A DNA stretch of 53,607 nucleotides, from the NCBI GenBank assembly GCA_026391715.1, contig JAPLDO010000223.1, forward strand, positions 1 to 53,607, in the 5' to 3' direction. Shown piece after piece: positions 42,638 through 53,607 of this stretch (position 1 is the first letter of the stretch; every line of letters begins with the position of its first letter). Under the pieces are notes generated by a model. It searched no databases, was not told the origin of the DNA, and saw only the letters and a program-made list of their open reading frames with translations. A program made the position numbers and the translations under genes. This DNA comes from Bacteroidota bacterium (lineage in GTDB: Bacteria > Bacteroidota > Bacteroidia > Bacteroidales > FEN-979).

Positions 42638-43945
42638 TCAGTTTTTTTCGCGGTTGTCAATAAATTTTATGGGTTTACGGCTGGTTTCGGGAAACTGCAA
42701 TTTCTGTAAAGCGGATTCATGCTCAAAGGAAATTAACGGCGCTACTCGCAGTTTTGTTCTGAAATGGTCTTTTATGTCTGTCTCTTTTTCTTCTCCGATA
42801 TTTTTTCCGCTTACGCGAATCCTGATTTCATCGGTTCCAATCTGGTTAGTATAAACTTCAACGATGTAGTTCGAGATATAATCAATATTGTCGAGAATAT
42901 CGTAAAGCGCAGGTGGGTAAAGCGTTGTTCCTTTGTATTTGATCATCTGGTTTTTTCGACCAAATATGGGACCAAGACGTATTGTATTTCGTCCGCATTT
43001 ACAAGGTTCGGTATGATGATAACAAATATCCCCCGTCTTGAAACGCAGTAAAGGCATTCCTTCAACGCCAAGAGTAGTGATTGTGACTTCTCCCGGTTCA
43101 CCTTCGGCAACAGGGTTATTGTTGTCGTCGAGAAATTCCACTATTATCAGTTCAGGGTGGTGATGCCCGCCAATACCTTGGGAACATTCTGTAAAACTGG
43201 TTGCCATTTCGGTGGAGGCATAAGTTGAAAAGAGCCGGAGTCGCCATTTTTCCTGTATCCTTCTGCCCAGCGTATTCGGTGAAAAATCGGTGTTTCGTAG
43301 CGGTTCGCCAATACATACAGCGTTTTTTATGCTGCTGTTGCAATAATCAATTCCGCGGCGTTCTGCAAATTCAATTATTTTGAGAATGAAGGATGGCACG
43401 GCAATTATGGAATTTGGTTTTATCCGGTTAATGGTATCCCACTGTAATTCAGGAATGCCATTCCCAACTCTGACAATGCCGGCGCCGAGCGCCCTGATTC
43501 CCATGAAATATGCCAGTCCCGCCATAAACCGCCGGTCAATTGTAGTCATTAACTGATAAACATCCGTTGGAGAACCTCCGGCGCAGGTAAACGAAATGGC
43601 TTCATTATAAGCCAGCCTGTCCAAATCTTTATCAGTCATGGCAAAAGTTACGGGATTGCCCATTGTTCCGGAAGTTGTAATGTAATCAATGATTTTGGTT
43701 TTTGGCACACAGAGAAAATCGCTGTTTTGGTTTTGCAGATCGTCTTTCATCGTAACCGGAATCTGAGCAAAATCTTCAACGGATTTGATTTTCCGAATGT
43801 CTATCCTGTGTTTCTGAAACATATCCTTGTAAAACAGCGAATTGGCGCCAAGGTATTCAAGCGCCTCGTGGAGTCTGTTGTTTTGGTATTTCTGAATGTT
43901 CTCCAGCGACGTTTGTTCTATTTCAGGGAAAAATTTGTTGTTCAT
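42638..43945 (-). CDS. PaaK-like acyl/aryl-activating (adenylate-forming) enzyme
   Basis: This 435-aa enzyme of the phenylacetate-CoA ligase family adenylates a carboxylic acid and transfers it to a thiol (CoA or a carrier-protein arm). The nucleotide loop is TTSGTMGNPVTF at about 95-106. The central domain has STYASTEMATSF-type motif FSTYASTEMA at about 240, then LRFKTGDICYHH and the C-terminal LYPPALYDILDNI. In this operon a natural acceptor is the acyl carrier protein encoded two genes upstream. Start chosen at ATG 43945 (MNNKFFPEIEQ). The longer frame to 44074 is translated repeat DNA. Confidence 0.82.
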   Translation of the reverse strand: MNNKFFPEIEQTSLENIQKYQNNRLHEALEYLGANSLFYKDMFQKHRIDIRKIKSVEDFAQIPVTMKDDLQNQNSDFLCVPKTKIIDYITTSGTMGNPVTFAMTDKDLDRLAYNEAISFTCAGGSPTDVYQLMTTIDRRFMAGLAYFMGIRALGAGIVRVGNGIPELQWDTINRIKPNSIIAVPSFILKIIEFAERRGIDYCNSSIKNAVCIGEPLRNTDFSPNTLGRRIQEKWRLRLFSTYASTEMATSFTECSQGIGGHHHPELIIVEFLDDNNNPVAEGEPGEVTITTLGVEGMPLLRFKTGDICYHHTEPCKCGRNTIRLGPIFGRKNQMIKYKGTTLYPPALYDILDNIDYISNYIVEVYTNQIGTDEIRIRVSGKNIGEEKETDIKDHFRTKLRVAPLISFEHESALQKLQFPETSRKPIKFIDNREKN

Positions 43946-43984
43946 GATTGGCATAGATGAGTGCGGTCTTAAAAAAATTGATTT

Positions 43985-44073
43985 TGGGCTAAAGCCCAGT
44001 GTGCAGCTTAGTTTCCTTATCCCCCGACCTAAAGGTCGGGGCAATTCAGGTCGGGGCAATTCAGGTCGGGGCA
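43985..44073. repeat. Two-hairpin intergenic element, copy 2, with a 15-bp tandem repeat
   Basis: Hairpin 1 TGGGC-TAAA-GCCCA (43985-43998), followed by GTGTGCAG. Hairpin 2 CCCCGACC-TAAA-GGTCGGGG (44022-44041), then CAATTCA. The unit GGTCGGGGCAATTCA (44034-44048) is repeated at 44049-44063 and partly at 44064-44073. The element lies between the sulfotransferase and PaaK-like genes of one operon and encodes the sulfotransferase stop codon. Confidence 0.85.
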
Positions 44074-45134
44074 AAATATAAGCCCAGCTCCGTCCCTATC
44101 AATCTTTTTTCGTCGTCTTTCAGGGTGAAATTATTTTTCTTGTAATAGCTTGTTTTCTTAATAAAATCTTTAATTCTCTCTTCAAAACCGGAGGAAAAAG
44201 GGAGGTTCAACTGTGTATAAAGGTTCGCGATTACTGAAACCGGACTTTTTTCGAGGTCTTCAAAACGGATTTCTGCTATGGTTCCGGCAGGAAGATCGCC
44301 TTTTGCTTTTTCGACTGCATTGAGTAGTTTGCCAAGAAATCGTGCCACTTCTTCAACCGTAGGATTTACCGGATGATTTGTCAGAGTATTTTGTTTTCCC
44401 AGTATTTTCCACATATTTACGGTTGAAGGTACAACGTTAAATGGATGCCTTGTAATATGGATAAACTTTGCTTTGGGAAATATTTGGAGAAGTGTATCTA
44501 TTCTAAACGAATTGAATGGATTCTTTGAAATAATTCTCTTTCCGCTTTTATAATTGAGTTTACGGTAAAAGTCCCGAATCTCTTTTTTCCATTGTTCAAG
44601 ATCGTCCGCAGGAGGAAAGAATGGCGTTTCATTATCCAGAAAATAATTCTCTGAACTCTGAAAAACAAGTCGTTCAAGAGGTGAATATGAAGTCGTCCTG
44701 TAAATGGCATATTCGTCTTCCTGGGGTTCATCCATCCCGATTTCTACCTGGTCCATGGGGCGATGTTTTCCAATCAGCCTTTTGAAAAGAGGACGGTAAT
44801 ATGGATAGGAAACAAGAAAACTGTCAGGCACGGCAACCTCAAAAAGAGTAGGAGCATGAAAGTTTATATCCAGGTTCAGCGCCTGATGCAGGTATGTAGA
44901 TCCTGTTCGCCAGTGACCAATGATAAAAACCGGATCATCAGGAACTTTCACGTTATTCAGAGTGTCGGCAAATCTGGCTTTTTCAATTAAAGAAAACAAA
45001 GACGACCAACAAGCTCCCTGCAACAGGAATGCAAGCCTTAACAGGGTTTTTGCATTGAAAGCAACTTTATTCCGGTTCAAAAGCCGAAACAGTTGACCGA
45101 TTGTAATTCCGGCGGTTAGGTAGGAGTCTTTCAA
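44061..45134 (-). CDS. PAPS-dependent sulfotransferase family protein
   Basis: The 357-aa protein transfers sulfate from PAPS to a hydroxyl or amine. The 5'-phosphosulfate loop is VFIIGHWRTGSTYLHQAL at about 70-87, with the invariant TGSTYLH core. The 3'-phosphate loop is HITRHPFNVVPSTVNMW at about 225-241. ISKNPFNSFRIDTLLQIFPKAK is also typical of sulfotransferase family 3. It is the sixth gene of the carrier-protein operon, 11 bases after the ACP gene. The last residues (FAPT) come from a tandem repeat. Confidence 0.85.
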   Translation of the reverse strand: MKDSYLTAGITIGQLFRLLNRNKVAFNAKTLLRLAFLLQGACWSSLFSLIEKARFADTLNNVKVPDDPVFIIGHWRTGSTYLHQALNLDINFHAPTLFEVAVPDSFLVSYPYYRPLFKRLIGKHRPMDQVEIGMDEPQEDEYAIYRTTSYSPLERLVFQSSENYFLDNETPFFPPADDLEQWKKEIRDFYRKLNYKSGKRIISKNPFNSFRIDTLLQIFPKAKFIHITRHPFNVVPSTVNMWKILGKQNTLTNHPVNPTVEEVARFLGKLLNAVEKAKGDLPAGTIAEIRFEDLEKSPVSVIANLYTQLNLPFSSGFEERIKDFIKKTSYYKKNNFTLKDDEKRLIGTELGLYFAPT

Positions 45135-45145
45135 AACCGGGTTTG

Positions 45146-45433
45146 CTAAGGAGTAATTTTCACCAAACGCTGGTCGGTAATAAACTGTGCAATGCTATTT
45201 ATTGAGCGTATAACTTCACGAGCCAGAGTCTGGTCGGCAATGCGGAAACCGTAAGTTCGCTGAATTGCCATGATGATTTCAATTGCATCAACTGAATCAA
45301 GTGTCAGAGCATTTCCACCGCCAAAAAGAGGTTTCTCTTCATCCACATCCACGGGGTCAACATCGGTAATGCCAAGTGTGGAGATGATCATGCTTTTGAT
45401 TTCAAGTTTTAACTCATCAGTTGGTTCAGGCAT
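45146..45433 (-). CDS. Acyl carrier protein (specialised)
   Basis: The 95-aa carrier protein has the phosphopantetheine Ser in LTLDSVDAIEI at about residues 43-53, preceded by EEKPLFGGG and followed by IQRTYGFRIADQ. This pattern (FGGG...LDS[IV]DA[IL]E, RYG[VF][KR]I) resembles ACPs of aryl-polyene/dialkylresorcinol clusters rather than the housekeeping fatty-acid AcpP. It sits 20 bases after the BtrH-like acyltransferase gene, suggesting that enzyme uses this carrier. Confidence 0.85.
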   Translation of the reverse strand: MPEPTDELKLEIKSMIISTLGITDVDPVDVDEEKPLFGGGNALTLDSVDAIEIIMAIQRTYGFRIADQTLAREVIRSINSIAQFITDQRLVKITP

Positions 45434-45453
45434 AAGTAATTTAGTTTTGGCAA

Positions 45454-46461
45454 TTATTTTATTGCGAGGGACAAGGATTTAAAGAACCTCTCTTCAACAT
45501 CTGCCCGGTCATAAATCATTTCACTTAATTGTTTTAATTTATCTGGTCCAAGGTCGCGGTTTTTTCCGATTCGGGCTGTGAACAGCGATATTTCACGCCA
45601 TCCATCTCCAATGTTCATGAGTTCTTCCGAAAGCGATTTCAGCTCTGCAATTCCGGTTATTGCGGCAGCCTGTTGAAGAAATGTTGCATAGATGAACCTG
45701 AATCCTGCGCCGCCGGTTCCCTGGTCTTCGAGCAGGATGTTAATTTTCATGATTTCATGAGAAAGATGTTCGGTATCGCGTGCAAATTTGGGCCATTCTG
45801 TCACTTTTTTTGCAAACATCCTGATTCCTTTGATACCGAGGAAAGGGATTGGAATTTTCAGCATATTAAAGCAGGCTTTGCTTATGCCTTTGAGAATTGC
45901 CGGCTTCAGGTTTACCTGAGTTGGCAAACTGTCAACATGAAAAATAAACCCTTTAGGCGACATATTTCCTCCCGCAAATCTTCCCTTTTCCAGCGATAAG
46001 GCATCAAGTTCAACCAATTTCGGGAAATAGGCGTCGCTAACGATATACCGGTTTTCCTCCTTACCAATAACTACAAGGAAATGGACGTTGATATGCACCC
46101 GTTCCCAGGATGGAACATAATCGAGATAGAAAAAGTCGACCTGATTGGCAACAGGAATCTGTTGCCGGATCAGTTCATCAAGTTTCATTTCACCCTTTAC
46201 CGGGTCTCTGAAATTATAGGTTTTAAACCTGACTCCGAGACGTTTTTCAATATTTTTCCGCATCTGTCCCGGCTTATTTCGGACAATAAATGTAGGAAAA
46301 GCGAATGATTTCATTTTGTGAAAGTATCCAAAAAATATACCGCTTGAAATTCCGAAAACCAGTGGCTCTGTAATCTCCATACCGCGATGGCTCAGTAGCG
46401 ATGCGATTGTTCCTGATTCGCAATGCGCTGCCATTTTATGTTCATAGTTATTTATGATCAT
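45454..46461 (-). CDS. BtrH-like acyltransferase (BtrH N-terminal and DUF4872 type)
   Basis: The 335-aa protein resembles BtrH of butirosin biosynthesis, which transfers an acyl group from a carrier protein (BtrI) to an amine of the aminoglycoside. The papain-like/C39-like core is at about 10-160: Cys in HCESGTIASLL at about 13-23, His in HINVHFLVVIG at about 123-133, and Asp in YIVSDAYF at about 139-146. The helical C-terminal half (about 190-335) is DUF4872-like. Its start abuts the stop of the HTH-like gene (no gap) and the ACP follows by 20 bases. Confidence 0.78.
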   Translation of the reverse strand: MIINNYEHKMAAHCESGTIASLLSHRGMEITEPLVFGISSGIFFGYFHKMKSFAFPTFIVRNKPGQMRKNIEKRLGVRFKTYNFRDPVKGEMKLDELIRQQIPVANQVDFFYLDYVPSWERVHINVHFLVVIGKEENRYIVSDAYFPKLVELDALSLEKGRFAGGNMSPKGFIFHVDSLPTQVNLKPAILKGISKACFNMLKIPIPFLGIKGIRMFAKKVTEWPKFARDTEHLSHEIMKINILLEDQGTGGAGFRFIYATFLQQAAAITGIAELKSLSEELMNIGDGWREISLFTARIGKNRDLGPDKLKQLSEMIYDRADVEERFFKSLSLAIK

Positions 46462-46968
46462 CTAATTTCGTTCCTCAATTTTGGTAAGTACAACGAAAGG
46501 ATTGGCAGTTGGCGACTGAGCGATAGAAATATGTTCGGCTTTATTTTCAAGGATATGGTTTGATTCCAGCGTTCCTTTCGACTCGATCAGAATAACCTGG
46601 AAAAGGTTTGCCGGAGCTACATTGAAAACTCCCGAAAACCGAATAATTTCATCAGCCGAAACTGTGCCGAAATACACAGGATTCAGGAGCTTTTTCACCC
46701 TTGATTTTCTGATTCCGGCGCGCGCCGCCAGTTCAAAAATGGTGAGGTCTTCGAGAACCATGTAGTATTTAACTATACTGATTCTGCCTTTTATAAGCTG
46801 TTCCCTGAGTTCAGCTTCCAGATTGCGACGTTTCAGGGTATAATCGTCCATGTAATTAGCTGAAAGGTAAGATCCTGTCTGTATAGGTCCGTAATTCCCA
46901 TCCTCCTTTTCCACGTAAATTATTACCTGTTGTTCGGGGTAATCCACATAGCCATCTTTTTCCTTCAT
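46462..46968 (-). CDS. Small HTH-like protein of the carrier-protein operon
   Basis: The 168-aa protein is not a family I can name. Residues about 74-112 (TIFELAARAGIRKSRVKKLLNP then SADEIIRFSGVFNV) look like a helix-turn-helix of the XRE type followed by a second pair of helices. The N-terminal 60 residues are acidic with a coiled tendency. The C-terminus (about 130-168) is low complexity. It could be a pathway regulator. It lies between the methyltransferase and BtrH-like genes, with the BtrH-like start directly adjoining its stop. Confidence 0.6.
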   Translation of the reverse strand: MKEKDGYVDYPEQQVIIYVEKEDGNYGPIQTGSYLSANYMDDYTLKRRNLEAELREQLIKGRISIVKYYMVLEDLTIFELAARAGIRKSRVKKLLNPVYFGTVSADEIIRFSGVFNVAPANLFQVILIESKGTLESNHILENKAEHISIAQSPTANPFVVLTKIEERN

Positions 46969-47020
46969 TTAGTGAAACTTTAAAATTGAAGCCTATTCCG
47001 GTTTTGCAAAATTAAGAAGA

Positions 47021-48127
47021 TCATCGCTTATTTGCTTCAATCAGGCAAATTGGCGCAATGGTTGGAATTATTTTTGGCAAAGTGAATCCCGATTTTTCCA
47101 GAAGAGTTTCAAATTCAGCGGCGGTACGTTCCTTGCCTCCCTGCATGGCAGCCATCATTTGAATGTCAAGTAATTTGGAAAGCGAAGGTGTATTTCCGGG
47201 GGGAACCACCATTTCGATAATTAGCAACCGGCTGTCAGTCAGCATACATTTTGAAATATTGGATAGGATTATCAAACAATCTTCATCGTTCCAGTTGTGG
47301 ATAATATTCTTAAGAATATAAATATTCGCTTCAACAGTAATGGATTTAAAAAAATCGCCGGCGATGACCGTAGTCCGATTGAGAGAATGATTAACGGCAA
47401 GTATTTCCGGGGCTTTTGCAACTCCCTGGGTTGTATCGAAAAGTATTCCCTTTGATCCCGGATTGTTATTCAGGATATTTGCAAGCAGGAATCCTTCACC
47501 GCCTCCGATATCAGCGATAACCGGATATTTTGAAAAGTCATAAGCATTTAGGATAGGGGAGAGGCCAAGTTCAGAGAGGTTTGACATTGATTTATCAAAC
47601 AGTTCATAATCTGGCGGATGATCTTTCAGGTATTCATAAATCCCGGCGCCGTATCGTTCTTTGAATGGATCCATGCCGGTTTTAACGGCGACTTCGAGAT
47701 TGCTCATCAGGTTCCAGTTTACGGCTCCGAGATGATGAAGTATCATATAGCGCAATGAACCCTGTTCTTCAAGCAATGGTTTCGACAACCCATTTAGCGC
47801 ATATCGGTCATCTTTCAATTGGCGGAAAATCCCCTGGCTGGCAAGGGCGCGCATTATACGTGAGATGTTTGAGGCGTCAACGTGCAGAAGGTCAGCCATT
47901 TCATGGACTGTGAGTGGTTTCTTTTTCAGCAGCGTGGCAATATCGAGTTTTGCTGCAACATATAAAGAGGGTAAAAGCCAGAAATACTGAAACTGCTCGT
48001 ACAATACAACATTTCCGGGAAATAGTTTCCTGTTGAGTTGAAGAAGAAAGGTGCGGAACGAATTTATGGCTTTGATGAGCCAAACAGGAGGGAGCTTCTG
48101 AACAGGTTGTGGTTTATTAAAACTCAT
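47021..48127 (-). CDS. SAM-dependent O-methyltransferase (acetylserotonin/hydroxyneurosporene type)
   Basis: The 368-aa protein has an N-terminal winged-helix dimerisation domain (about 40-110, DIATLLKKKPLTVHEMADLL) and a Rossmann methyltransferase domain. SAM-binding motif I is VIADIGGGEGFLLANIL at about 204-220, and ILKNIIHNWNDEDCLIIL at about 272-289 carries the catalytic-type His of the family. This class methylates phenolic or polyketide hydroxyls. Its start lies 5 bases after the upstream 595-aa gene's stop, so it acts in the same pathway. Confidence 0.87.
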   Translation of the reverse strand: MSFNKPQPVQKLPPVWLIKAINSFRTFLLQLNRKLFPGNVVLYEQFQYFWLLPSLYVAAKLDIATLLKKKPLTVHEMADLLHVDASNISRIMRALASQGIFRQLKDDRYALNGLSKPLLEEQGSLRYMILHHLGAVNWNLMSNLEVAVKTGMDPFKERYGAGIYEYLKDHPPDYELFDKSMSNLSELGLSPILNAYDFSKYPVIADIGGGEGFLLANILNNNPGSKGILFDTTQGVAKAPEILAVNHSLNRTTVIAGDFFKSITVEANIYILKNIIHNWNDEDCLIILSNISKCMLTDSRLLIIEMVVPPGNTPSLSKLLDIQMMAAMQGGKERTAAEFETLLEKSGFTLPKIIPTIAPICLIEANKR

Positions 48128-48132
48128 CAGAT

Positions 48133-49920
48133 CTAACGAACCGGGAGATTTTTCAACTGAGTTTCAAATTTTTCAAGATCTGCAATCAGTTTTGTCTTTT
48201 TATCCTGAAGGCTCAGTTTCACTGAAGAAAACAACTCCTTGTAATACTGAATGCCTTTTTCGAGGTTATCGCTGAAGGTGGAAAAGTATTCCTGCTGTTT
48301 TTCCGACCAGGGTCTGGCAGTTTCGTCAATCTTGTTTTTCAGGTAATCAATGTAGATTGACAATTCTTTAATGAACATGTGAGGGCGGTCTTTACGTCGG
48401 ATTACATTGATTTTTCCATAGATATGATCCACCATTTCCTTCAGCGTCATCTCCTTTGAAAAATAAGCCATGTTTGGTCCTGGGCACACCGAAACGCCCG
48501 GATGCTCCACTTTGGTATCGAGGTCATTGACAAGCAGGGCTGATGTGCCGAGTCCGACGCAGATACATGATTTGTCAACGATTTTATTGAATTCGGTATG
48601 ATATTCAACTGAATTCAGATTTTTTGCTTTCAGTTCCTCAATTTTTAATTTCTGATATTTTCTTGAAGCAGTGCAAAGCGTAGGATCTCCAAATTCATTA
48701 CTCAGAGCGGCATATTTTTTCGGACAGGGATTTCCCGGCGTATGTTTTTGGATGTAGACGTCTTTTTCGATGTCTTTGGTATTTCCGCGGAGGTTGTTGA
48801 AAGGAACGCCAAGCGGGCTGATATTACTCACATACAAATCTTCTTCCGTAGCTTCGCATAGCATGCCGAGTGTTTTATTATCAACGTTAACAACTTCGGG
48901 AACCAAAAGGAACGGAGTTCCCCAGCCAACAGAATTCAGTTCATAATGATCGGCAAGGAATTGATGTTCATCGGCAGTGCCTACGCCGCCTTGCGCCGTT
49001 ATTTTAATCTCAGGGGGTTCTGGCGGACATTGCCGCTTTTTGGCGATGAGAGCTGTTTTGAGTAGTTCAAAGGTTTGTCGGACAAGTTCCTTACGGTTGA
49101 GCTTCATCTCTTCGAGTACAGGACCAAGGAGGTAACCGGTGGTGGGAAAGGCGTGACCCCCGCAATTCAGTCCCGATTCAATACGGTACTCTGAAACCCA
49201 CAATCCTTTTTTGGCAAGATATTTTCCCTGGATCAGCGCTGATCTGTAATCGCTTACTTTAAGCGTGATCTTCTTTTTCAGATTAAAATTTTCATCGGGA
49301 TAAAACTCGCTGAACGATTCGATGTAATTATATAACCGGGGACTCATCCCTGCCGATAACACAACTGATGATGAAAGGTGGCTGTTGACAAATCCGCGAA
49401 GCGCCGCATGACCATCATTGTATTCGGGAGGCAGTTTTTCATGGTTCCGGTAGTTTTCCTTATCTACCTTAGTCATAATATTTACATCAATGTTACCCAT
49501 GGAGAGGTTTTCGTTGATCCACTCCCTTACGTCGAGGTTATCCCAGTCGCGTTTAATCTTATCGAATTTCTGTTTCAGAGCTGAGGAATCCTGAAGCATT
49601 TCGATATATCGTGAAAATTCGCTGCTTTTCTGTTCGTAAGTTGCCTTTAATTCTTCGAATTTGTCTTTTGCAAGTTTGTCGACAAGATTCAGGTAAGCCG
49701 TAATCCGTTTTGCCCTGAAATCCTCAATTTTTTCAGATATACCTTGAAAAGGAAGATCAAACTTCCTGCTATAGAATTCGCGTAATTTTTCCATCAGTAT
49801 ATCATCAAGAAGCGAAATCACCGAAGAGATGCCAAGATGAGCCACTTTCACAGGAGTATCAATGGAATATCCAATTCCCAATACCGGGATATGGAATGAA
49901 TGCGGGGTTATTTTATTCAT
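48133..49920 (-). CDS. Conserved Bacteroidota protein of unknown function, operon leader gene
   Basis: The 595-aa protein has no signal peptide or membrane helix. It opens HIPVLGIGYSIDTPVKVAHL. Striking motifs are SSVVLSAGMSPRLYNY (about 184-199), GLNCGGHAFPTTGYLLG (about 253-269), ITAQGGVGTADEHQFL (about 310-325), GWGTPFLLVPE, and VCPGPNMAYF with several Cys. The C-terminal 90 residues are coiled coil. The GGVGT segment and the barrel-like strand pattern suggest a TIM-barrel, flavin-type enzyme, but this is only an impression. I recall similar uncharacterised proteins in other Bacteroidota. First gene of a seven-gene operon. Confidence 0.75.
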   Translation of the reverse strand: MNKITPHSFHIPVLGIGYSIDTPVKVAHLGISSVISLLDDILMEKLREFYSRKFDLPFQGISEKIEDFRAKRITAYLNLVDKLAKDKFEELKATYEQKSSEFSRYIEMLQDSSALKQKFDKIKRDWDNLDVREWINENLSMGNIDVNIMTKVDKENYRNHEKLPPEYNDGHAALRGFVNSHLSSSVVLSAGMSPRLYNYIESFSEFYPDENFNLKKKITLKVSDYRSALIQGKYLAKKGLWVSEYRIESGLNCGGHAFPTTGYLLGPVLEEMKLNRKELVRQTFELLKTALIAKKRQCPPEPPEIKITAQGGVGTADEHQFLADHYELNSVGWGTPFLLVPEVVNVDNKTLGMLCEATEEDLYVSNISPLGVPFNNLRGNTKDIEKDVYIQKHTPGNPCPKKYAALSNEFGDPTLCTASRKYQKLKIEELKAKNLNSVEYHTEFNKIVDKSCICVGLGTSALLVNDLDTKVEHPGVSVCPGPNMAYFSKEMTLKEMVDHIYGKINVIRRKDRPHMFIKELSIYIDYLKNKIDETARPWSEKQQEYFSTFSDNLEKGIQYYKELFSSVKLSLQDKKTKLIADLEKFETQLKNLPVR

Positions 49921-49940
49921 TTACATATATAAAGACAGTG

Positions 49941-49948
49941 CAAAGATA
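49941..49948 (-). promoter_or_regulatory. Promoter -7 box of the carrier-protein biosynthetic operon
   Basis: The reverse strand reads TATCTTTG (TAnnTTTG), 20 bases before the ATG at 49920. No other convincing box occurs in the short gaps down to 42638. Confidence 0.7.
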
Positions 49949-50080: not shown

Positions 50081-53000
50081 ATGAAAACGCTATCTTTTCT
50101 GTTCATCTCATGTTTGTTCACATATTCAATCAGCGCTCAAAATGCGCCTTTGGACCCCAGTAAACAAATTAATGTTTATGTAAGCTCTACTACCACTCAA
50201 ACTAACACCGACATTTTACGGCAGGCTTCATTCAACCAACAGATCATTGGAATTCAAGTTGTAACTGCCGGGAATTTAAACCCGGATATTGTGAGTTCGT
50301 TTACCATGAATACTAACGGATCAACAAACGCCAGCGATATTGTTGCCGCAAAAGTTTATTATACAGGAACAAACGGCACATTTACCGCAACCAACCAGTT
50401 TGGGACAATCTGCTTAACTCCGGCTGGTTCTTTTTCAATTGCGGGTTCACAGGTTTTGGCTGAAGGAACTAATTATTTCTGGCTTACTTATGATATTTCA
50501 TTAAACGCTGCCCATAATGATTTAATTGATGCAGAATGTAATTCAATCATTGTAAATGACACAGTAAAAACTCCGGCGATTGTGGCGCCGGAGGGTTTCA
50601 GAACAATAAAAGCAGCTCTCACCGGCGCGGTAACCGTTGGTTCAACCGGCGACTATCCAACAATCACAGGCGCAGGAGGCGTGTTTGAAGCAATAAATAT
50701 TGGAGGTTTGAAAGGAAATACAACTGTTCTGATTGTATCAAATACCTTAGAAACCGGTATGGTAGCATTATCGCAATGGTATGAAGCCGGAGGTTCAGAT
50801 TTTACCCTGACGATTCAGCCGGACGCCGCTGTGGAAAGAGTAGTTTCGGGCAGTTTTGCTGGAGGACTTCTCCGGTTATCCGGCGCCGATCGCGTTACGA
50901 TTGACGGACGATACAATAATGCCGGAAAATACCTCGCCATTGCCAACACAGCAACATCGGGAACCATCGCTGCAATACAACTCATTGGAACCGTAGCAGG
51001 AATGGGATGCGCAGATATTCTGATCAGGAATTGCAGGGTAAGCGCCGGTCACAACGGAAATGGTTCCTACGCCATTACTTTGGGTGGTACAACAGTTGGA
51101 TCGGCTGGATACGATCACGACCAGGTTGCAATTCAGAATTGTGTTCTTTCCAAAGCCGGATATGGCATCTATTCGCGAGGCAGCGCTACCGGGATATACG
51201 ATAACCTTGTTATCTCCGGCGACTCTGTTGGCTCTGTGATTCCTGGGAATGAGGTAAAACTATGTGGAATATATCTTCAGCAATGTGCCACCGCGATGGT
51301 TTCGGGCAACACGGTATTTAATATCGTCAATGGCTCATCCGAACCGAAAGGAATCCAACTCTCTGCCGGCTGCATAAATTCAACTGTTTCCGGGAATATG
51401 GTTACAGCGGTGAAATATACTGGAGCCTTCACTTATGGCGGTTCCGGGATCTATATCAATCCTGGATATTTGACTGCTAATATTTCAATCGCCAACAACA
51501 TTATAACTGATATTTCAGGGGTTGGCAGTATGAACCTTGCTATTGCCGGAATCCGGATCGAAAACGGCGCCGGTATCGCGCTTTACTACAATTCGGTAAA
51601 TCTTGCAGGCAATGTAAGTCATGCAACAACCGGCGATATGAGCGCGGCAGTTTATATTGGCGGCTCGGCGGCAGAAATAATTCTGAAAAACAACATCTTC
51701 AGAAATTCTATCGTGAATACCGCTGCCAGCGCGCTATCTTATGCGATATATTCAAATATGCCTGGCTATGGCTTTTCCACGATAGATTACAACGACTATT
51801 TTGCCGGCGGTTCCCAGGGGCGACTGGGTTATTGTGATTATACAAATGCGAACACTATTTCCCAATGGAAAACGGCAACTTCGCAGGACGTCCATTCAAT
51901 CGGCGACGACCCGTTGTTTGCCACCATGACCGATCTCCACTTCGATTATGCCTCGCCTGCGCGGTTTGCAGCCGCACCAATTATTGGAATTACAACTGAT
52001 TTCGAGAATGTCATCCGCAATGATTCAACACCTTCAATAGGCGCTCTTGAAACGCCGCGAGACAGCCAGGGACCTGAAATCACCTATTCAAAATTGCAAA
52101 ATACAGCAACGCTGACTCAACGAACTCTGATAGGAACAATAACTGATGCGACAGGCGTTCCAGTATCTGGTCCCGGTTTGCCCGTTTTATATTGGAACAT
52201 CAACCATGGAACCTGGAATGCCTCTGTCAGCGAACATACTGGCGACAGCAGCTACCAGTTTACTTTCGGGTTTGGCGTTTCTATTTCCGACAGCGTATTT
52301 TATTTCATTGCAGCTCAGGATACCTATTCTATGCCCAGCGTAGGCGTCTTTCCTTCTGCCGGGGCGGCGGGGTTCAGCGCCAATCCGCCGGCTTGCTCTG
52401 CAAAGCCAGCCAATCCTGACGTTTATAAAGTTGTGGCAGGGCTCAACGGTATTCTAACGGTAGGAATTGGCGGCAATTACCCAAACCTTACCGGAACCGG
52501 AGGACTGTTTGAAACTGTTAACAATAACCTTCTGAATGGGAACGTTGACGCCAGGGTCATATCCGACCTCACTGAACCGGGAACCTGGCAACTTTATAGC
52601 TGGCTGGAGGAGGGCGCCGGTTCTTATTCGCTAACCATCAATCCTGACGGAACTACTGAACGACTAATCTCCGGGAATGTTGACAAGGGTCTCATAACTC
52701 TCAACGGCGCTAAACGTGTCACCATCTCCGGCGCCGCCGGCGATACAACTTCCCGGTACTTCAGGATTCGCAATACCAACAACAGCTACCCTGTAATCCA
52801 TTTCCTCAACGGCGCCCAAAACAATACTGTCCGCAACTGCCATATCGAGTCGGAGCTATTGGGAATCGCTTTCGGCGCGTCAATTGTATTCTCAGGAAAT
52901 TCCCATAACCAAATCATTTTTAACGCTATTCATAACCGCACCGACACAACCGACATTCAATTCTACGGAATCTATTCCCTTGGAACCACGGCAAATCCCA

Positions 53001-53607
53001 ATCATTCGAATATCATCAGAGGAAATGAAATATCCAATTACAGTTCAACAGGCATTAATATAACCGGTATCGGCAACGGCGGCGAATGGGTAATCGCAGG
53101 AAACAGCTTTTTTAATAATCTGGAGCCTCCGCAGCCAACTCTTCAGCGGGGCATTAATTTTGTACCGGGCGGGTTGTCGCACGAAAACCATATTACCGGA
53201 AATTATATTTGGGGACAATCGCCCCAATGCGGTGGTAATTACTGGAATAATTCAGGAAGCGCAGGTTTCTCAGGAATTTCCATCAATGCAGGATCGGCAA
53301 ATAATTACATACAGAATAATACGATTTCTAATATTTTTTTATCTGATACAACCACAGGCAGCTTTTATGGGATAGTAGTCGAGGATGGCTGGTGTTCGGT
53401 GACAAACAATATCATCGGTAACGCTGATACTGCCAAATCAATCAGAAACGCAGCCGCTATTGGTTCTGTTGAAGGAATAAGCATCCGGTCAGCCACAAGT
53501 ACCTGCAACGTATCCGGGAATATGATTATGAATTTTATTTTCACTGCCCCTTCAGGAAATCCGGAAACGACCGGAATTTTTATCAACAGCGCCAATGCAA
53601 CAAAAAA
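50081..53607 (+). CDS. Giant secreted BNR_assoc_N/beta-helix surface protein (3' end beyond window)
   Basis: The frame is open from ATG 50081 to the window end (at least 1175 codons, no stop found on reading it through). A signal peptide ends ...FTYSISAQ at about residue 20. Residues about 28-165 match the BNR-repeat-associated N-terminal domain (KVYYTGTNGTF, EGTNYFWLTYDIS). From about 180 the protein is Gly/Asn/Thr-rich with parallel beta-helix repeats (SGNTVFNIV, IANNIITDIS, LKNNIFRNS). A second module starting at about 790 repeats the opening of the first: TVGSTGDYPTITGAGGVFE versus TVGIGGNYPNLTGTGGLFE. Likely an exported adhesin or glycan-related protein. A type IX sorting domain would be expected at the unseen C-terminus. 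Confidence 0.85.
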   Translation, partial: MKTLSFLFISCLFTYSISAQNAPLDPSKQINVYVSSTTTQTNTDILRQASFNQQIIGIQVVTAGNLNPDIVSSFTMNTNGSTNASDIVAAKVYYTGTNGTFTATNQFGTICLTPAGSFSIAGSQVLAEGTNYFWLTYDISLNAAHNDLIDAECNSIIVNDTVKTPAIVAPEGFRTIKAALTGAVTVGSTGDYPTITGAGGVFEAINIGGLKGNTTVLIVSNTLETGMVALSQWYEAGGSDFTLTIQPDAAVERVVSGSFAGGLLRLSGADRVTIDGRYNNAGKYLAIANTATSGTIAAIQLIGTVAGMGCADILIRNCRVSAGHNGNGSYAITLGGTTVGSAGYDHDQVAIQNCVLSKAGYGIYSRGSATGIYDNLVISGDSVGSVIPGNEVKLCGIYLQQCATAMVSGNTVFNIVNGSSEPKGIQLSAGCINSTVSGNMVTAVKYTGAFTYGGSGIYINPGYLTANISIANNIITDISGVGSMNLAIAGIRIENGAGIALYYNSVNLAGNVSHATTGDMSAAVYIGGSAAEIILKNNIFRNSIVNTAASALSYAIYSNMPGYGFSTIDYNDYFAGGSQGRLGYCDYTNANTISQWKTATSQDVHSIGDDPLFATMTDLHFDYASPARFAAAPIIGITTDFENVIRNDSTPSIGALETPRDSQGPEITYSKLQNTATLTQRTLIGTITDATGVPVSGPGLPVLYWNINHGTWNASVSEHTGDSSYQFTFGFGVSISDSVFYFIAAQDTYSMPSVGVFPSAGAAGFSANPPACSAKPANPDVYKVVAGLNGILTVGIGGNYPNLTGTGGLFETVNNNLLNGNVDARVISDLTEPGTWQLYSWLEEGAGSYSLTINPDGTTERLISGNVDKGLITLNGAKRVTISGAAGDTTSRYFRIRNTNNSYPVIHFLNGAQNNTVRNCHIESELLGIAFGASIVFSGNSHNQIIFNAIHNRTDTTDIQFYGIYSLGTTANPNHSNIIRGNEISNYSSTGINITGIGNGGEWVIAGNSFFNNLEPPQPTLQRGINFVPGGLSHENHITGNYIWGQSPQCGGNYWNNSGSAGFSGISINAGSANNYIQNNTISNIFLSDTTTGSFYGIVVEDGWCSVTNNIIGNADTAKSIRNAAAIGSVEGISIRSATSTCNVSGNMIMNFIFTAPSGNPETTGIFINSANATK

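Follow-up and report, generated by a model that had tools for sequence, protein, structure and literature searches.

What could be made by an operon that encodes an acyl carrier protein (ACP), an acid-activating enzyme, an acyltransferase and two tailoring enzymes, with no ketosynthase (KS) among them? Such an operon, of seven genes, lies on contig JAPLDO010000223.1 of a Bacteroidales genome (GCA_026391715.1, here G000; 5.02 Mb in 256 contigs, 99% complete). The window analysed here is that entire contig (C250), 53,607 nucleotides long. A first-pass annotation had described the operon as a carrier-protein system of unknown product that fits no standard biosynthetic cluster. Flexirubins, which shift colour with KOH and are used as a taxonomic marker of Bacteroidota, are polyenes esterified to a resorcinol made by DarA and DarB. 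We propose that the operon is likely to provide starter activation, acyl transfer and tailoring for an aryl-polyene pathway of flexirubin type without this DarA/DarB dialkylresorcinol half. As judged from its genes, the product is probably a relative of flexirubin not yet described.

The operon consists of seven intact open reading frames (ORFs), all on the minus strand, running from 49920 down to 42638 (Table 1). Its intergenic gaps, in operon order, are 5, 52, 0, 20, 11 and 115 bases, which confirms the layout first described: gaps of 0-52 bases, then a repeat-bearing gap of 115 bases. The original assignments of an O-methyltransferase (OMT), a BtrH-like protein, an ACP, a sulfotransferase (ST) and a PaaK-like enzyme agree with Pfam (PF00891, BtrH_N plus DUF4872, PP-binding, Sulfotransfer_3 and AMP-binding, respectively). 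The statement that the operon fits no standard cluster did not survive, since the PaaK-like and BtrH-like proteins pass the curated NCBIfam cut-offs of two families of flexirubin clusters: FlxY_rubin, named for flexirubin biosynthesis, and DarH_acyl, named as a BtrH-related acyltransferase. Members of DarH_acyl are present in canonical flexirubin clusters, and none of 14 control genomes passes its cut-off. The FlxY protein is the sole match over its cut-off in a scan of G000 and shares 55-62% identity with its counterparts in three canonical flexirubin clusters. Gene 3 shares 20-27% identity with the DarG proteins of four genomes of flexirubin type.

The motif residues to which the first-pass annotation had drawn attention are invariant in orthologue alignments. 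These are Ser47 of the ACP (10 of 10 rows, three of them ACPs from clusters of flexirubin type, 33-35% identical), C14, H127 and D143 of DarH (19 of 19), the GHWRTGST loop of the sulfotransferase (7 of 7), and the GGGEG loop of the methyltransferase (10 of 10), in which HNW is invariant as well. The three DarH residues are taken as catalytic by analogy with BtrH, an ACP:aminoglycoside acyltransferase whose BtrH_N domain is described as papain-like in PMC10318531. A sequence search of the PDB with DarH gave no match, while the best match of the methyltransferase was AlpH, with other methyltransferases next.

Further parts of a flexirubin-type pathway are found elsewhere in G000. The genome contains three DarH genes, one FlxY gene over the cut-off and one FlxA-type tyrosine ammonia-lyase (TAL) gene on contig C184, the product of which passes FlxA_rubin_TAL NF053541 with 828 bits (cut-off 700). 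A flexirubin type II polyene synthase set of KS, ketoreductase (KR), dehydratase (DH) and ACP is present on three contigs reached via scans for KS and KASIII. Contig C184 encodes TAL, KR, KS, ACP, an acyltransferase, a radical SAM protein, DH and DarG; C58 encodes a 217-aa protein, ACP, four KS, a polysaccharide deacetylase and LolA; and C215 encodes a thioesterase (TE) and KS. Thus, the operon has no ketosynthase gene, as first annotated, but synthases of flexirubin type are dispersed in the same genome and clustered nearby in the relative G199. A DarH scan led to C37 (DarH) and C98 (DarG, DarH, an ABC ATPase and an ABC permease). Similarly, a radical SAM query led to C186, which encodes cytochrome c, GT2, an MMPL-acyltransferase-methyltransferase, a FAD oxidoreductase, a C45 acyltransferase, a radical SAM protein and a 139-aa protein. 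Genes without a pathway match lie on both sides of the pieces on C184, C215, C186 and the window, whereas those on C58, C37 and C98 run up to a contig end, the last two possibly being adjacent; the pathway therefore occupies at least six places in G000. The remaining KS, on C97, adjoins an RNase III-like gene (identified by eye), is 39% identical to the KS of relatives and is taken as a housekeeping FabF.

Two observations concern the radical SAM genes of G000. The gene on C186 (40323-41684; L041) encodes a protein 92% identical to that of a relative over residues 1-387, and its last part matches in another frame, owing either to an assembly error or to a real change. Three tandem B12-type radical SAM genes at C219:47594-51735 (L086 12595-16736) are 33-35% identical to a radical SAM gene of a second cluster found in relatives, and no pathway neighbours were seen beside them.

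Synteny supports the earlier view of a carrier-protein operon, conserved as a unit, that unites an activating enzyme, a BtrH-like acyltransferase and methyl and sulfate tailoring. When the 595-aa protein encoded by gene 1 was used as a query against named genomes, 23 loci were obtained. Ten of them, at 77-83% identity (eight uncultured Bacteroidales, one Bacteroidetes and one Draconibacterium orientale), have the operon or as much of it as fits on their contig; in the other 13, no operon gene adjoins the 595-aa gene within the stretch covered. At E 1e-60 or better, the sulfotransferase was matched in 13 of 18 genomes of the same genus, in 19 of 24 from other genera of the family and in 1 of 38 from other families of the order. 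Neighbourhoods were taken for 17 of the 19 other-genus and 2 of the 13 same-genus positives, plus G276, the sole match in another family, where no other operon gene lies alongside. The core OMT-ABC2-DarG-DarH-ACP-ST is kept in each of the 16 other-genus loci where that side can be seen (L113, the 17th, is truncated), and FlxY follows it in 13 of 17. Of the relatives that show both flanks, 27 of 27 have an ABC-2 permease gene between the methyltransferase and DarG genes; among the loci seen, only the window is without it. Within the stretches of G000 scanned, the only permease seen elsewhere is the one on C98, which belongs to the first of two clusters described below and is 34% identical.

The position of the operon relative to the rest of the pathway can be followed in these relatives. 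TAL orthologues (74-77% identity) are present in 10 of 10 operon-bearing relatives. In G199, one contig holds both a first cluster, from TAL to LolA (51.4-72.3 kb), and a second, from DH to FlxY (92.6-124.7 kb), with 20 kb between them. The window, L007, L014 and L025 share the genes downstream of the operon (amidohydrolase, MutL, rhomboid and others, compared by eye). The window operon is therefore probably at its ancestral place, and the upstream part has moved.

In contrast to the companions of the polyene, the resorcinol half was not found. DarA, searched with one Flavobacterium-type query, was detected in 0 of 43 genomes of the lineage (G000 plus 42) and in three of three canonical control genomes; the scans gave 0 of 11 and 0 of 42, ten relatives of the first set may recur in the second, and several of the assemblies are incomplete. 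DarB is absent from G000, the one genome to which this statement applies. The PF08541 scan of G000 gave three proteins, none of which exceeds 57 bits to DarB (cut-off 550; 675 bits for the G170 control) or 61 bits to StlD/DarB (cut-off 450). A canonical DarB gives 55 bits to PF08541, over the cut-off, and the scan of G000 should therefore have caught one. The system of G000 is flexirubin-type by parts and logic, yet, as neither DarA nor DarB was found there, it is no flexirubin cluster by membership.

Gene content, family scores, synteny, the lack of DarA and DarB matches in G000 and the conserved residues were established directly, and from the families the following reactions may be proposed. 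The FlxA-type lyase of C184 would convert tyrosine to 4-coumarate, which the window FlxY would convert to 4-coumaroyl-CoA. In Chitinophaga pinensis, purified FlxY forms 4-coumaroyl-CoA and FlxA is a tyrosine ammonia-lyase, according to PMC3992019. The PaaK-like protein can be retained as an activating enzyme, but its direct loading of the ACP, as first suggested, is unsupported, since the FlxY member tested in that work makes a CoA thioester of 4-coumarate. The starter would then be extended to a polyene by the type II KS, ketoreductase, dehydratase and carrier proteins of C184, C58 and C215. The operon ACP is predicted to carry the acyl chain, and DarH, a putative papain-like enzyme with Cys/His/Asp, would hand it to an acceptor, either a hydroxyl or an amine, that is not a DarA/DarB resorcinol. 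The methyltransferase and sulfotransferase would decorate the product, and ABC, MMPL and LolA proteins encoded elsewhere would carry it to the outer membrane.

Several findings weigh against this assignment. Gene 3 falls below the cut-off of the DarG subfamily (Table 1), whereas the C184 copy passes with 102 bits. The FlxY cut-off is imperfectly specific, as 1 of 14 control genomes also exceeds it. FlxY is not beside the module in 4 of 17 other-genus loci, all of genus g106 (four of its five loci), a count that covers the neighbourhood only. In G000 the pieces of the pathway are spread over separate contigs and may or may not be expressed together. The operon DarH and its syntenic copies form one separate, long-branched clade (support 88/90; 92% of 200 bootstrap trees), in a tree in which the bootstrap is not fully settled, DarH98 of G199 was left out and can_L060, can_G017 and can_G099 are long branches. 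The substrate of the operon DarH may consequently differ, and the enzyme is likely to use an acyl donor or acceptor of its own. Finally, the second cluster of relatives (L077/G207 and L073/G199) has its own FabF-type KS, acyltransferase (AT), ACP and DarB-like KASIII, together with two crotonases and several radical SAM genes, and in G207 a 3-hydroxyacyl-CoA dehydrogenase; its own KS, AT, ACP and DarB-like synthase could mean a product apart from the polyene. That synthase scores 107 bits against the StlD/DarB cut-off of 450, and the set of KASIII, crotonases, KS, AT, ACP and radical SAM is unmatched in the canonical flexirubin clusters fetched.

The operon might therefore serve a second, separate product, in which case the lipid of the relatives' second cluster, at the end of which the operon stands, would receive the methyl and sulfate groups and FlxY would be a mere neighbour. 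The gene content of that cluster, including its dehydrogenase and B12 radical SAM, agrees with this, as do the separate DarH clade and the four of five g106 loci that keep the module without FlxY alongside. We nevertheless consider it unlikely. G000 keeps the operon, yet no homologue of the cluster's DH, TE, KASIII, ACP or AT occurs in 330,884 scanned bases (~7% of the genome), although the KASIII type gives only 21 bits to PF08541, below the cut-off, and could have escaped the genome-wide scan. The crotonase homologue in scanned G000 is only a distant one, on C149 (27%, 52 bits). A KS of the second cluster would give 173 bits to PF00109, and the KS that the whole-genome scan of G000 gave are otherwise explained (the FabF of C97 at 39%, and those of C184, C58 and C215). 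In addition, the GT2, MMPL, FAD oxidoreductase, C45 and FlxY genes of the second cluster are flexirubin-cluster genes.

Loss or movement of the permease, the upstream block and the neighbours could also mean that the operon in G000 is a decaying relic. The permease is missing from the window, the pathway extends over seven contigs, the C186 radical SAM gene matches in two frames near its end, and in identity to outgroups the window ranks last of six for two genes, DarH by a margin of 0.1 point and the sulfotransferase by one of 0.7. However, decay is very improbable, as all seven reading frames are intact, the motif residues are kept, and mean protein identity to outgroups, in a simple comparison, is within ~3 points of that of relatives for seven of seven genes. 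The window copy therefore looks functional despite the absent permease. The first-pass version, in which the operon by itself would activate an acid, load it onto the ACP and turn it into a sulfated and methylated acyl amide, agrees with the window enzyme set taken alone and with the BtrH precedent, but is hardly tenable beside an FlxY membership that indicates a 4-coumarate CoA ester (PMC3992019), flexirubin-type synthases in the same genome and an amine acceptor carried over from BtrH alone.

Two other candidates were rejected. An operon unlinked to resorcinol or aryl-polyene clusters is ruled out by the FlxY and DarH family scores and by homologues in canonical clusters. A ladderane-type pathway, prompted by the B12 radical SAM and phytoene-desaturase-like genes, was dismissed on scores of 39 and 55 bits to the ladderane radical SAM model (cut-off 360).

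The preferred reading, a flexirubin-type pathway without its resorcinol half, may be compared with known systems. The canonical clusters of G170 and G095 contain homologues of FlxY, GT2, the MMPL exporter, FAD oxidoreductase, C45 acyltransferase, DarG, DarH, TAL and several KS, and matches to KR and the operon ACP were found in those of G170 and G099. With the flexirubin (flx/dar) clusters of Flavobacterium and Chitinophaga, the system shares a FlxA-type TAL, FlxY, the type II KS set, KR, DH, ACPs, GT2, an MMPL exporter, LolA, polysaccharide deacetylase, C45 acyltransferase, FAD oxidoreductase, DarG, DarH and an ABC transporter. It differs from them in that no DarA was found in the lineage and no DarB in G000, and in that the G000 set is dispersed. 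It further has three DarH copies, the 595-aa protein in the window's genus, and an added O-methyltransferase, sulfotransferase and B12 radical SAM enzymes (no match in three canonical clusters). BtrH of butirosin biosynthesis shares the BtrH_N domain with Cys/His/Asp and an adjoining ACP gene, whereas the window DarH also has DUF4872 (read in the window protein alone) and its family sits in flexirubin clusters.

The xanthomonadin and arcuflavin systems of Xanthomonas and Azoarcus follow the same aryl-polyene logic from a chorismate-derived starter. Compared with these, TAL, FlxY, DarG and DarH are kept here, no DarA was found and a sulfotransferase is added. Azoarcus keeps darA/darB, which a BtrH-like gene and ABC genes adjoin, and xanthomonadins are aryl polyenes without dialkylresorcinol (PMC3949708); a DarA-less polyene is thus not new in itself. 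In the literature searched, where papers on aryl polyenes and sulfotransferases were judged by title, there was no account of a gene set of flexirubin type that has a sulfotransferase and no DarA. This combination appears to be the new element, aryl polyenes without resorcinol being the known one.

The 595-aa gene stands apart from the other six. Of 198 genomes from the phylum, 75 have it, 13 have DarH (12 over the cut-off) and 10 have both; outside G000, the two lie on separate contigs or at least ~143 kb apart in 9 of 9 cases. All 12 same-genus-type loci have it next to the operon, 10 of them fetched with the 595-aa protein itself (and not independent) and 2 with the sulfotransferase, as against 0 of 16 other-genus loci. 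Widespread, and not seen beside the operon outside the window's genus, it was rejected as a core part of the system. The earlier expectation that the genes are not routinely found apart thus holds for six of them and fails for this one. No relative of the protein was found in Pfam or NCBIfam, and the PDB gave no convincing match, only two weak apolipoprotein matches to a profile; its alignment has many invariant glycines and several invariant cysteines. A second copy of the gene, fragmented and with internal stops, lies at C1:4371176-4372868 of G095, a flexirubin-positive genome.

Table 1. Features of the operon and its flanks, in window coordinates
Feature	Position	Strand	Evidence or remark
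Gene 1, conserved Bacteroidota protein, 595 aa	48133..49920	-	No Pfam/NCBIfam family, no convincing PDB match
Gene 2, S-adenosylmethionine (SAM) O-methyltransferase, 368 aa	47021..48127	-	PF00891 E 2.7e-44
Gene 3, distant DarG-family protein, 168 aa, weak Cro/C1 helix-turn-helix match	46462..46968	-	NF053536 40 bits, cut-off 70
Gene 4, DarH, BtrH-related acyltransferase, 335 aa	45454..46461	-	NF053550 326 bits, cut-off 300; BtrH_N + DUF4872
Gene 5, acyl carrier protein, 95 aa, Ser47 in LDSVDA	45146..45433	-	PF00550 E 6.8e-7
Gene 6, sulfotransferase of 3'-phosphoadenosine 5'-phosphosulfate (PAPS) type, 357 aa, TTG start	44061..45134	-	PF13469 (Sulfotransfer_3) E 6.7e-30
Gene 7, FlxY-type acyl-CoA ligase (PaaK-like, AMP-binding)	42638..43945, ATG at 43945 or 43954	-	NF053551 724 bits, cut-off 520
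TATCTTTG, candidate Bacteroidota-type -7 box	49941..49948	-	20 bases ahead of the 595-aa start
Palindrome and three 15-base direct repeats, between ST and FlxY	44017..44077	.	~234-aa gene at that spot in many relatives
52-base OMT-DarG gap	46969..47020	-	ABC-2 permease gene (~400 aa) there in 27/27 relatives with both flanks seen

The box annotated ahead of the operon, TATCTTTG, is present and resembles what we take to be the Bacteroidota -7 consensus. Its weight as a promoter was reduced: this 8-mer has 8 copies in the window against 2.8 expected, and alone it is therefore weak promoter evidence. In the gap ahead of FlxY, a 15-base unit occurs in three head-to-tail copies, the third 80% alike, with the palindrome CCCCGACCTAAAGGTCGGGG at 44022-44041; the palindrome with repeats has no second occurrence in the window at up to 3 mismatches. 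Divergent from the operon, an ORF of at least 1175 aa with a signal-like start (50081-53605) runs off the contig, and in relatives the remaining pathway cluster lies on that side.

Since the pathway of G000 is split over at least six places, a view of one contig shows no synthases beside the operon, and the same dispersal might hide the pathway from cluster-finding programs. FlxY, DarG and DarH, canonical companions of DarA/DarB, are retained here in the absence of DarA and linked to the transfer of methyl and sulfate groups, which predicts a sulfated pigment. As DarH is here separated from the resorcinol, its true reaction becomes testable. More tentatively, the whole Bacteroidales family may make a new class of anionic outer-membrane pigment-lipid, in which an aryl polyene begun by TAL and FlxY would be joined by DarH to a non-resorcinol head, O-methylated and sulfated. 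In several relatives that head might be derived from the DarB-like synthase, the crotonases and B12 radical SAM enzymes, perhaps as an oxygen-independent version of the flexirubin pathway.

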